The notes beneath the pieces were generated by a model. That model did not search any database, was not told where the DNA came from, and saw only the letters and a program-made list of their open reading frames with translations. 64,000 bases of DNA from Sphingomonas horti (GTDB lineage Bacteria; Pseudomonadota; Alphaproteobacteria; Sphingomonadales; Sphingomonadaceae): contig NZ_WQMS01000016.1 in NCBI RefSeq assembly GCF_009753715.1, positions 124,001-188,000 on the forward strand, in the 5' to 3' direction. Both the position numbers and the translations under genes were made by a program. Positions within the stretch are counted from its first letter, which is position 1, and each line of letters starts with the position of its first letter. Positions 50,830 through 54,377 of the stretch are shown piece by piece.

Positions 50830-51696
50830 ATGGCCGCACGCGCCTATTGGCAGGGACAGATCAGACTCGCGCTCGTCTCGATTCCGGTCGAGCTCTATTC
50901 GGCGACGAAGAGCGGCGCGCAGATCCAATTCCACCAGATCCACGAGCCGACCGGCAAGCGGATCAAATATGAGAAAGTCGCGCCGGGCGTCGGCGCGGTC
51001 GATCCGGAGGATATCCGTAAGGGCTTCGAGTATGAGAAGGGCCATTATGTCCTGCTCGACGAGAGCGAGATCGATGCGGTCAAGCTCGAGAGCAAGAAGA
51101 CTCTGGAGCTGACCCAGTTCGTCGACGCGCATGAGATCGACGTGCTCTATTTCGAGAAGCCCTATTATGTCGTCCCCGCCGACGACCTCGCCGAGGAAGC
51201 ATTCATCGTGCTGCGCGAGGCGCTGAAGCGGACGAAGAAGGTCGGCCTCGGCCAGCTGACGCTCAGGGGTCGCGAATACATCATCAGCCTGAAGCCGTGC
51301 GGGCGCGGCATCGTGCTGGAAACGCTGCGCTATTCGGATGAAGTCAACAAGGCGCAGGGCTATTTCCGCGACATCGCCGACACGAAACCGGACGAGGAAT
51401 TGCTCGACCTCGCCGAAACGCTGATCGCGAAGAAGAGCGCGCCGTTCAAGCCGGACCAGTTCCACGACCGCTATGTCGACGCGCTGAAGGCGCTGGTGCA
51501 GAAGAAGCTGAAGGCGAAAGGCGGCAAGGTCGCGCCCGAGCCCGAGGAGGAAGCGCCGAAGCGCGGCGGCAATGTCGTCGATCTGATGGCCGCGCTGAAG
51601 AAGTCGCTCGAAAAACCCGGGGAGCCGGCCCGCAAGCCGGCGGCCAAGGCGCCGGCGAAGAAGGCGGCGACGGTGAAGAAGAGGGCGGCGGGATGA
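50830..51696 (+). CDS. ku: Ku protein, non-homologous end joining
   Basis: A 288-residue bacterial Ku homodimer subunit that binds DNA double-strand ends and recruits LigD. RAYWQGQIRLALVSIPVELY is the conserved start, followed by the core beta-barrel domain through about residue 235. The C-terminal 50 residues are a Lys/Ala/Pro-rich tail (RKPAAKAPAKKAATVKKRAAG in part), typical of extended DNA-binding tails. ATG 50830 is preceded by AAGGTG. Its TGA abuts a palindromic element that separates it from ligD. Confidence 0.96.
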   Translation: MAARAYWQGQIRLALVSIPVELYSATKSGAQIQFHQIHEPTGKRIKYEKVAPGVGAVDPEDIRKGFEYEKGHYVLLDESEIDAVKLESKKTLELTQFVDAHEIDVLYFEKPYYVVPADDLAEEAFIVLREALKRTKKVGLGQLTLRGREYIISLKPCGRGIVLETLRYSDEVNKAQGYFRDIADTKPDEELLDLAETLIAKKSAPFKPDQFHDRYVDALKALVQKKLKAKGGKVAPEPEEEAPKRGGNVVDLMAALKKSLEKPGEPARKPAAKAPAKKAATVKKRAAG

Positions 51697-51840
51697 AATC
51701 CTCCCCTGCGCGGCAGGGGAGGGGGACCATGCGAAGCATGGTGGCGGGGCGGCGCGTAGCGCCGAGCTTAACCCTCCGCTTCGTTCCGGTCCCCTCCACC
51801 GCGCTTCCCGCGGTCCCCTCGACAAGCGAGGGGAGGATTT
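51696..51840. repeat. Composite palindromic element filling the ku-ligD gap
   Basis: About 145 nt bounded by AAATCCTCCCC and GGGGAGGATTT. It has a left hairpin (CCTCCCCTGC/GCAGGGGAGG) and a right hairpin (CCCTCG/CGAGGGG), with a CATGC-gaa-GCATG stem and GGTCCCC segments between. It begins on the last base of the ku TGA and ends 2 nt before the ligD ATG. Its end GGGGAGGA is the ligD Shine-Dalgarno. The architecture matches the element inside ligD at 52413-52554. Confidence 0.85.
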
Positions 51841-51842
51841 AG

Positions 51843-54377
51843 ATGGCCGACCCGCTCGCCCGCTACAATGCCAAGCGCGATTTCACCAAGACCGCGGAGC
51901 CGGCCGGCGCGATCGCGAAGGGGACCGGTCATAGTTTCATGGTCCAGAAGCACGACGCGACGCGGCTGCACTGGGATTTGCGGCTGGAGATGGACGGCGT
52001 GCTCAAATCCTGGGCAGTGACGCGCGGGCCGAGCCTCGATCCCGACGACAAGCGGCTCGCCGTCCGCACCGAGGACCATCCGCTTTCCTACGCCACGTTC
52101 GAAGGCACGATCCCCAAGGGCGAATATGGCGGCGGCACGGTGATGCTGTGGGACCGCGGCACCTGGGCGCCGGTCAAGGGCAAGAGCGCGAAGGACCTGG
52201 AGAAAGGGCACCTCCACTTCATCCTGGACGGCGAGCGGATGAAGGGCGAATGGCTGCTGATCCGCCTGAAGCCGCGACCGAAGGAGCGGACGGAGAATTG
52301 GCTCCTGCGCAAGATCGACGACGAATATGCGGGCCCGTCCGGCGGCCTGGTCGACCGCTGCCTGACCAGCGTCAGCACCGGCCGCACGATGGACGAGATC
52401 GCGGCGGGCAAAGATCCTCCCCCAGCTCAGCTGGGGGAGGGGGACCGCTCGCCGAAGGCGAGGGGTGGAGGGGCGGCGCGTCAGCGCCGTGCCGGCGCTG
52501 CCCCTCCACCGCGCTCCGCGCGGTCCCCCTCCCCGAGCAAAGCTCGGGGAGGACCTGAACTCCCCGCTTTCACCCCGCCCCAGCTCGCCACGCTCGTGGA
52601 TACCGTCCCCACCGGCTCCAACTGGCTGCACGAAGCGAAATACGACGGCTATCGCGTGCTGCTCGCGGTCGGCCGCGGTCCTTCGACAGGCTCAGAGGCG
52701 AAGCTGTTCACGCGCACCGGCCTCGACTGGACCGACAAATTCGCCGTCATCGCCGAGGCGGCGCAGTCGCTCGATGTTGGCGCCGCGCTGATCGACGGCG
52801 AAGTGGTCGCGCTCGACCAGGCGGGCAAGCCCAGCTTCTCGGCGCTGCAGGACGCGCTGTCGCGCGGCAGCCGGGATCTCACGATGTTCGCGTTCGACCT
52901 GCTGTCGCTGGACGGCGAGGAGCTGAAGCGGCTGCCGAACCTGGAGCGCAAGGAGCTGCTGCGCACGATCATTCCCGCCGAGGGGCCGATCCTGTTCGCC
53001 GAGCATGTGATCGGCGAGGGCGAGAAATTGTTCCAGGCCATGTGCCGAGAAGGATTCGAAGGCATCGTCTCCAAGCGCGCCGACGCTCCATATCTCGGCA
53101 AGCGCACGCAGAACTGGCTGAAGATCAAATGCATCCAGCGCCAGGAATTCGTCATTGTCGGCTGGACCGCCAGCGAAGCGCGCGGACGCGGCTTCCGTTC
53201 GCTGCTGCTGGGCCTGAACGAGGGCGGAAAGCTGCGCTATGCCGGCAAGGTCGGGACCGGCTTCAACGCCCGGCTGATCGAGGAGCTGAGCGCGAAGCTT
53301 GAAAAGCTGAAGAGCGACAAGCCGACCGTCGAGGCGCCGCGTGCGGCCGTGCGCGGCGCGCATTGGGTCAAGCCGCAGCTGGTGGCCGAGATCGCCTTCG
53401 CCGAGTTCACCGCCGACAATGTCGTTCGCCACGGCAGCTTCATCGGCCTGCGGGAGGACAAGAAGCCGGCCGAGGTGAAGCCCGAAAAGCCGGTCGAGCC
53501 GCCCGCCGCGCCGGAGACCAGCGTGAAGATCAGCAATCCCGAACGCGTGATCTACCCGGATTCGGGCATCACCAAGGGCCAGTTGGCGTCCTATTATGCG
53601 CAGGTGTCCGGCATCATGCTGCCCTGGCTCGCGAACCGCCCGATCAGCTTGGTGCGGTGTCCGCAGGGACGCGCGAAGAAGTGCTTTTTCCAGAAGCACG
53701 ATGCCGGCAGCTTCGGCGAGCATGTGCGTCACGTGCCGGTGAAGGAAAAGAACGGCGCGACCGAAGACTATCTCTACGTCGATTCCGCCGAGGGGCTGCT
53801 GACCTGCGTGCAGATGGGCACGATCGAATTCCATGGCTGGGGCTCGCTGGTGCCCGATATCGAGCGGCCGAATAGGATCGTGTTCGACCTCGACCCGGAC
53901 GAAGGCCTCGATTTCGAGCAGGTGAAGAAGGCGGCGCTCGACCTGAAACGCTATCTGGGCGATCTCGGCCTCGTCACTTTCCCGATGCTGACCGGCGGCA
54001 AGGGCGTGCACGTGGTGGCGCCGCTGACGCCGGAGGCGGCCTGGCCGGCGGTCAAGGATTTCACCCACCGCTTCGCGCTGGCGCTGGAGCAGTCGGAGCC
54101 GGAGCGCTTCGTCGCCAATATGTCAAAGGCGAAGCGGGTCGGCCGGATATTCGTCGACTATCTGCGCAACCAGCGCGGCGCGACCGCGATCATGCCCTAC
54201 GCCGCGCGCGCGCGGCCGCACGCGCCGGTCGCGGCGCCGATCGCCTGGGACGAGCTGAAGGACCTCGATACCGCCGCCCGGTTCACGGTGCTCGACGGGG
54301 AGGAATTGATCGAACGCGCCAATTCGCGCCCGCTGAAAGGCTGGGGGGTGGCTGAGCAGGTGCTGCCGGACTTCTGA
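51843..54377 (+). CDS. ligD: DNA ligase D (phosphoesterase-ligase-polymerase)
   Basis: An 844-residue NHEJ ligase with domains in the order 3'-phosphoesterase (about 1-185, HDATRLHWDLRLEMDG with His43), ATP-dependent ligase (about 245-545, adenylated Lys266 in EAKYDGYR), and primase-like polymerase (about 560-844, with FDLDPDEGLDFEQVK). This is the Pseudomonas-like order. The linker between the first two domains is expanded by about 47 residues (191-237, low-complexity Pro/Ala/Arg) encoded by an in-frame palindromic element. A shorter repeat-like stretch encodes GPSTGSE at about residue 280, just after ligase motif I. The frame is open throughout, so it is probably functional. Confidence 0.95.
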   Translation: MADPLARYNAKRDFTKTAEPAGAIAKGTGHSFMVQKHDATRLHWDLRLEMDGVLKSWAVTRGPSLDPDDKRLAVRTEDHPLSYATFEGTIPKGEYGGGTVMLWDRGTWAPVKGKSAKDLEKGHLHFILDGERMKGEWLLIRLKPRPKERTENWLLRKIDDEYAGPSGGLVDRCLTSVSTGRTMDEIAAGKDPPPAQLGEGDRSPKARGGGAARQRRAGAAPPPRSARSPSPSKARGGPELPAFTPPQLATLVDTVPTGSNWLHEAKYDGYRVLLAVGRGPSTGSEAKLFTRTGLDWTDKFAVIAEAAQSLDVGAALIDGEVVALDQAGKPSFSALQDALSRGSRDLTMFAFDLLSLDGEELKRLPNLERKELLRTIIPAEGPILFAEHVIGEGEKLFQAMCREGFEGIVSKRADAPYLGKRTQNWLKIKCIQRQEFVIVGWTASEARGRGFRSLLLGLNEGGKLRYAGKVGTGFNARLIEELSAKLEKLKSDKPTVEAPRAAVRGAHWVKPQLVAEIAFAEFTADNVVRHGSFIGLREDKKPAEVKPEKPVEPPAAPETSVKISNPERVIYPDSGITKGQLASYYAQVSGIMLPWLANRPISLVRCPQGRAKKCFFQKHDAGSFGEHVRHVPVKEKNGATEDYLYVDSAEGLLTCVQMGTIEFHGWGSLVPDIERPNRIVFDLDPDEGLDFEQVKKAALDLKRYLGDLGLVTFPMLTGGKGVHVVAPLTPEAAWPAVKDFTHRFALALEQSEPERFVANMSKAKRVGRIFVDYLRNQRGATAIMPYAARARPHAPVAAPIAWDELKDLDTAARFTVLDGEELIERANSRPLKGWGVAEQVLPDF
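52413..52554. repeat. Composite palindromic element translated in frame inside ligD
   Basis: 142 nt with three nested levels. The terminal hairpins are CCTCCCCCAGCT-c-AGCTGGGGGAGG (52416-52440) and CCTCCCCGAGC/GCTCGGGGAGG (52528-52552). An outer dyad pairs GAGGGGGACCGC (52437) with GCGGTCCCCCTC (52520). An inner dyad pairs GGTGGAGGGGC (52464) with GCCCCTCCACC (52500). It has the same architecture as the element between ku and ligD. Confidence 0.9.
52679..52697 (+). repeat. Short repeat-like stretch inside ligD
   Basis: TCCTTCGACAGGCTCAGAG resembles the CTTCGACAGGCTCAG repeats frequently seen between sphingomonad genes. It encodes PSTGSE where the ligase domain normally has a short turn. Only a partial match; it could be chance. 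Confidence 0.45.

Follow-up and report, generated by a model that had tools for sequence, protein, structure and literature searches.

The ligD gene of Sphingomonas horti raises the question of how a long palindrome can come to lie in frame within a protein gene and be kept there. In the window, the 64,000-nt stretch of DNA that we analyzed, this gene spans 51843..54377 on the + strand and, by its ORF and Pfam matches, encodes the NHEJ DNA ligase D (844 aa), with a LigD_N/phosphoesterase domain at residues 35-141, a ligase domain at 258-429, a ligase C-terminal domain at 447-540 and a Prim-Pol domain at 577-823. A sequence-only reading had proposed that a palindromic element at 52413-52554 is translated within the phosphoesterase/ligase linker. 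We confirm the in-frame element and its place; of the proposed bounds, a core of 139 nt at 52415..52553 stands (LigD residues 191-237), delimited by conserved ends (TCCTCCCC on the left, GGGGAGGA on the right), and the three flanking bases are extra. It has zero stops in the ligD frame. We consider it very likely that this segment is a copy of a dispersed, non-autonomous repeat of the Sphingomonadaceae, here called R1, that entered the linker in a stop-free register and is translated, kept and tolerated there.

The ligD element is built of two inverted halves, each with one outer and one inner hairpin. The left half lies at 52415..52474 on the + strand (outer phase 2, PPPAQLGEGDRSPKARGGG; R1 model score 67.0 bits) and the inverted right half at 52500..52553 on the - strand (80.8 bits), and between them, at 52475..52499, is a variable middle, a part that differs greatly among the LigDs of a related clade. 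As RNA, the 142 nt of 52413-52554 fold with -118.2 kcal/mol; 200 dinucleotide shuffles average -77.4 +/- 4.5 (z -9.1), and none does as well. An Rfam scan of the window gave no match at gathering thresholds. In an AlphaFold model of LigD made with 38 sequences (mean pLDDT 74.8, pTM 0.44), residues 194-238 have pLDDT below 50, as expected for a disordered insert; the model is also low at 1-18, 39-42, 89-98, 161-181 and 549-555.

The element has many relatives elsewhere in the genome. A DNA search of this genome returned at least 93 pieces, merged into 40 places, a lower bound given that 40 of 145 initial candidates were scored. A covariance model made from 75 half-elements of this genome, both ligD halves included, gave at least 110 half-matches in 58-61 places depending on merging distance, 10-14 of these being one half only; with 150 of 3705 candidates scored, these copy counts too are lower bounds. 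Adding to the 40 places of the first search the 19 more found among the 110 half-matches puts the copy number at about 59 places. The top score among the at least 110 half-matches is that of the ligD right half, which is itself among the 75 model rows. The consensus half starts with TCCTCCCC and ends with GGTGGAGGGGC, and its hairpins covary, with 93.9% of cells paired and a score of 0.342, compared with 0.130 +/- 0.008 for shuffled and at most 0.106 for slid controls. Low-complexity linkers occur in other LigDs, which would fit a Pro/Ala/Arg linker maintained at the protein level and palindromic in look through composition alone; the fold z of -9.1, the roughly 59 related places and the covariation all speak against that reading, which the genomic copies refute and to which we give virtually no credence.

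R1 was present in 23 of 59 genomes, counting this one and its relatives, with at least 94 matches here, 90 in G005, 55 in G001, 49 in G004 and, in the family's other genera, as many as 93, all of them lower bounds from no more than 94 scored candidates per genome. The same survey found no R1 in G002 or G003, of the same genus, and outside the family it found 3 matches each in two genomes of one other family. By a home-made gene finder, the first 40 places comprise 27 intergenic, 5 partial and 8 within an ORF, and 21 further rows comprise 15 intergenic, 1 partial and 5 inside (two of these are the glyS copies, one counted before); the counts are approximate because the gene finder is crude, having placed an antisense ORF over ku. 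Intergenic R1 is open in 70.6% of the six frames, as against 53.4% for length-matched windows drawn at random from the genome and 45.1% for base shuffles (46 elements, 38 taken as intergenic).

Several features of the copies and their surroundings were noted in passing. Two bases ahead of the element, all 38 intergenic copies have a purine, and two bases past it 36 of the 38 have a pyrimidine; R1 copies often adjoin a stop codon. At one locus (L129, G000:C6:87178-87498) two near-identical R1 pieces follow each other, separated by an N, an arrangement that may be an assembly artifact. In the related genome G005, contigs break off where our genome has R1 in valS (L158), glyS and the mutase gene, so the repeats probably break assemblies and draft copy numbers are probably too low.

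Nine R1 copies lie internally and in frame in eight genes, encoding LigD, ValS, GlyS (two copies), RNase R, MurD, methylmalonyl-CoA mutase, GcvPB and the terminase large subunit, a set that rests on Pfam domains or relatives and whose genic copies were recognized partly by their open frames; copies at gene ends (L120, L126 and L278) are excluded from it. With about 59 places and these nine copies, the lineage does have a protein-coding palindromic family, as the sequence-only reading had suggested. R1 falls between Pfam domains in LigD, RNase R, the mutase and the terminase. In ValS it forms residues 476-521, at a gap in the alignment with the solved enzyme 1gax that falls between residues 473 and 477 of the chain. 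The left half is read as GEGD, in the same inner frame, in 7/9 copies; GcvPB uses another frame and the mutase copy lacks GEGD. The inserts add 46-54 residues in 8/9 cases, and the mutase match covers 37. For the copy in front of a UvrD-type helicase (L126), a position ahead of the true start of that gene is more likely. The proposed special tie to the enzyme that joins broken DNA is not supported: 7/8 of the interrupted genes are not DNA repair genes, and a preference of R1 for repair genes is rejected with one clear case among the eight. The suggested effect of the element on its own spread or on repair likewise gains no support here.

Relatives reveal the corresponding empty sites in 6/8 genes (rnr, valS, glyS, murD, mutase and gcvPB). 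At the rnr site, the DNA of 7/7 relatives read, including five from this genus, shows no element. Of seven relatives at the valS site, three are empty, three have other palindromes without an R1 match (one type in G001 and G004, z -7.9 and -6.5, another in G006, z -6.1) and one meets a contig end. At the first glyS site R1 occurs here and in G004; at the second it occurs here, in G001 and in G009, several relatives are empty, and others have different palindromes (G004 z -10.0, G015 z -7.0, G011 z -3.5). R1 sits at the same place of murD in G001, G004, G005 and G016, with the site empty in G003, G011 and aligned order-level relatives; it recurs in gcvPB of G001 and G005, empty in G002 and G003, and in the mutase gene of G001, empty in G002. 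The spots in ValS, GlyS and MurD, proteins that are essential in model bacteria, have probably been filled repeatedly by R1 or other palindromes, as has the LigD linker. The expectation that close relatives would lack the LigD segment failed: no very near relative with an empty LigD site appeared among those fetched, and the three closest LigDs (L030, L031 and L032, 82-89% identical) all carry it.

A ribosome has great difficulty passing a hairpin of -118 kcal/mol, and hairpin bypass is known from a yeast mitochondrion, so R1 might be removed or skipped before protein is made, by RNA splicing or ribosomal bypass, leaving LigD without the extra residues. We regard this as highly improbable. None of the nine internal copies shifts the frame or contains a stop, features that would be unneeded if they were removed, with the qualification that the copies were partly recognized by open frames. 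Nor do the intergenic copies split conserved genes in the pairs covered: of 14 same-strand pairs flanking an intergenic R1, 13 have different Pfam families and one (L130) includes a gene without a match, with L128, L135, L154 and L273 among the pairs left out of the test. One pair (L132) consists of a PQQ dehydrogenase and a cytochrome c; these domains are fused in some proteins.

On the reading that we favor, and most simply, an R1 copy would have inserted between the phosphoesterase and ligase domains of LigD no later than the last common ancestor shared with L030-L032, and would be translated and retained as a disordered linker rich in Pro, Ala, Arg and Gly. Two things would make it tolerable: this linker has no fixed structure and varies in both length and sequence, and a palindrome so rich in GC leaves most frames open. 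Where R1 landed elsewhere in genes, selection would mostly have purged it, so that the remaining genic copies sit in linkers and loops. The family, the open frame, the empty sites, the several families at one site and the hairpin covariation are observed; that R1 is mobile, translated and retained, and that its neutrality makes it tolerated, we infer.

Applied to 80 relatives, the R1 model, built from this genome alone, matches the LigD linker in 31 (E <=0.05; 32 copies with the window), the weakest matches being single halves of 24-25 bits in L093 and L104. Among the 32 copies, eight have the left half in outer phase 2, sixteen in phase 0 and five in phase 1, and three have the right half only. 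A further 16 linkers fold with z < -4 and have no R1 match; 15/16 of these palindromes have CGTC followed by GACG, as in known REP dimers, a tag so short that it is only suggestive. Neither an R1 match nor a fold z < -4 is seen in 32 of 79 labelled LigDs, a few of which (L043, L074) resemble decayed palindromes; the fold scores omit L036, L053, L061 and L064, which had no anchor. We take the LigD linker to have received palindromes, R1 or others, again and again.

On a LigD tree made by a quick method with the linker excluded (19 of 77 inner branches open, L036 left out and L061 unlabelled), R1 presence needs 17 changes, and a six-way label needs 28, versus 41.9 when shuffled. The window groups with L030, L031 and L032 with good support, and all four have R1 in phase 2; a neighbor of this group, L057, has a 19-residue linker without a palindrome. 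The stem sequences differ among these four and yet stay paired, and the present copies are therefore not simple vertical descendants. Two LigDs only about 3% apart (branches 0.011 and 0.022, 94-96% DNA identity outside the linker) carry different families, R1 in L059 and a CGTC-type palindrome in L062; such linker swaps between near-identical LigDs may partly reflect allele exchange by recombination. It could instead be argued that all LigD copies descend vertically from one ancient insertion in the family ancestor with frequent loss, as the linker is shared and the type often is too, the window group of four fits one event, and changes on the tree cannot separate gain from loss. The 17 changes, the three outer phases, the other palindromes at the same place and the L059/L062 pair make this very unlikely in our view, with the reservation that phase differences are no proof of separate insertions because a change of stem length shifts the inner frame, as in MurD.

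In the LigD copies, 97.5% of cells are paired, with covariation of 0.220 versus 0.070 for shuffled and at most 0.049 for slid controls; this count uses 24 loci out of 31 (L054, L068, L079, L082, L093, L098 and L104 are left out), which give 37 distinct rows, in an alignment fitted to the model, a step that favors pairing. The homologues accordingly share the segment as DNA with paired hairpins, and not as protein over unrelated DNA, the contrary outcome that the sequence-only reading had envisaged; its other contrary outcome, a lack of further genomic copies, is set aside by the many copies found. In nine related phase-0 LigDs (L052, L055, L056, L059, L060, L064, L066, L067 and L071), not one of the 46 sites in the left half varies, compared with 11.5 +/- 3.3 variable sites per 46-nt window elsewhere in the gene (minimum 3; 0 of 2231 windows as low), and the same sequences vary at 26 of 48 sites in the middle of the element and at 8 of 55 in the right half. 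This near-perfect conservation exceeds the neutral prediction, and it goes beyond protein constraint alone because third positions elsewhere are 58% variable. What is preserved in the left arm of these nine is the DNA itself; gene conversion with another copy of the repeat may account for this, or else selection acting on DNA or RNA.

These observations also bear on whether the LigD element is kept for a function, as an mRNA hairpin at the domain border, a basic flexible tether or a DNA binding site. The invariant left half, the paired and covarying LigD copies and the interdomain position in LigD, RNase R, the mutase and the terminase point that way. Against it, the 32 of 79 LigDs with neither R1 nor a strong fold do without such an element, other families replace R1, the eight interrupted genes have no common function, and the conservation could stem from gene conversion with other genomic copies; we judge a function unlikely. 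More tentatively than the insertion and tolerance of R1, and at somewhat less than even odds, we propose that the LigD linker serves as a landing pad in which the translated palindrome stays "alive": its arm would remain identical even at synonymous sites, double changes would re-pair its hairpins through gene conversion or hairpin selection, and families would replace each other. Sphingomonad interdomain linkers would then be exchangeable repeat cassettes, whose ends may also act as ready-made ribosome-binding sites.

How R1 spreads was approached through the Y1 transposase. Y1_Tnp (PF01797) had 0 matches in this genome, with 5 of 14 control genomes positive, and it was also not found in G001 or G005. 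It occurs in 14 of the 59 genomes and is not more frequent with R1 (5/23 R1-positive versus 9/36 R1-negative), and the 20 Y1 loci fetched from relatives gave 0 R1 matches. With a cut chosen after seeing the data, Y1 is present in 5 of 8 genomes with at least 49 R1 matches versus 9 of 51 others (Fisher p 0.014), and within the family, at the same post hoc cut, in 5 of 8 R1-rich genomes versus 2 of 27 (p 0.003). A RAYT as the mover of R1 is not supported, given no Y1 in this genome and no R1 at the 20 loci; a link between the two is possible, with no R1 at Y1 loci and yet Y1 commoner in R1-rich genomes. Among 46 R1 copies the longest direct repeat averages 2.67 nt versus 2.51 for shuffled flanks, giving no sign of a target-site duplication, and no constant duplication was found at the empty sites; mobility is for this reason inferred from distribution and empty sites.

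R1 has the features of the kind of element known from Rickettsia: it is a dispersed palindrome with several in-frame copies in unrelated genes, and orthologues of six of the eight genes have empty sites. Rickettsia palindromic elements are palindromic repeats of about 150 nt, some in frame in unrelated protein genes and others intergenic, according to passages of PMC10969869 (citing Ogata et al. 2000, 2002). R1 resembles them, by that description, in being palindromic, in its length and in having copies of both kinds; it differs in a host of another order, in being GC-rich and in its two inverted halves with two covarying hairpins each. R1 in LigD also occurs in several reading phases, at sites that other families use too. 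One constant reading frame is a trait expected of Rickettsia inserts; R1 gives a mixed picture, with GEGD in 7/9 copies of this genome and all three outer phases in LigD.

The remark in the sequence-only reading that sphingomonad repeats are treated as intergenic was too strong. Passages of Di Nocera et al. 2013 (PMC3733652) describe GTAG- and CGTC-tagged REPs as inverted dimers, mostly near gene 3' ends and some in frame in genes, including repair genes and tRNA synthetases of S. alaskensis and E. litoralis; they also report that recB of two Xanthomonas was struck at about the same site and that the inserts mostly have 20-30 residues, with clusters of 43-82. R1 is likewise made of inverted halves with in-frame copies in genes including tRNA synthetases, but its halves lack GTAG or CGTC at their ends, have two hairpins each and yield longer inserts (46-54 residues; mutase 37). 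As in REPIN/RAYT systems, it has two inverted REP-like halves, a variable middle and tens of copies per genome; unlike in them, no Y1 transposase was found in this genome, and no R1 at the Y1 loci fetched from relatives. R1 is like MITEs and intragenic ERIC/RU in being a short inverted-repeat element sometimes fused in frame to genes, and like MITEs in its terminal inverted repeats (AAATCCTCCCC...GGGGAGGATTT), but it shows no target-site duplication. In-frame palindromic repeats in genes are thus already known; among the papers listed by a literature search of titles and abstract openings, with few subscription journals, none gave an account of the R1 family, of the LigD linker as a repeat site or of such turnover of palindromes in LigD. 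Long palindromes that code for protein are familiar mainly from Rickettsia; R1 adds free-living bacteria, which offer a large set of orthologues. Different families at the same spot make it possible to separate element properties from site properties, and the system allows testing whether repeats supply new protein segments and start signals.

The window holds two further repeats at this locus. Within the ligase domain, an 18-nt copy of a second repeat (CCTTCGACAGGCTCAGAG) at 52680..52697 on the + strand, identified by alignment and genome search, adds about 5 residues; other aligned LigDs have no similar insert, and L099 has a different one of 4 residues. Repeats of this type (CCTTCGACAGGCTCAGG) have 26 genome matches at <=2 mismatches, with 0 for the reversed control, and the single window match alone is not significant (26 of 100 shuffles at <=3 mismatches). 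Upstream, between the NHEJ partner ku (50830..51696, + strand, Pfam Ku) and ligD, lies a second R1 copy at 51699..51837 (61.5 and 33.1 bits), which is absent at that place in the upstream sequences of L030, L031 and L032. It ends in GGGGAGG (51830..51836, + strand), by sequence in an RBS-like position 6 nt before the ligD ATG at 51843. This outer end of R1 amounts to a ready Shine-Dalgarno sequence, as seen at window 51830-51845 and at L124, L127, L128, L129, L151 and L271. A start codon 4-7 nt past an outward R1 end opens at least 150 codons in 13 of 71 cases, versus 1-7 of 71 at ten shifted positions. By Pfam, the genes after such ends include those for a NADH dehydrogenase 30 kDa subunit, RuvC and a Mur ligase, alongside ligD, and R1 also lies directly before ligD in L068, L082 and L098.
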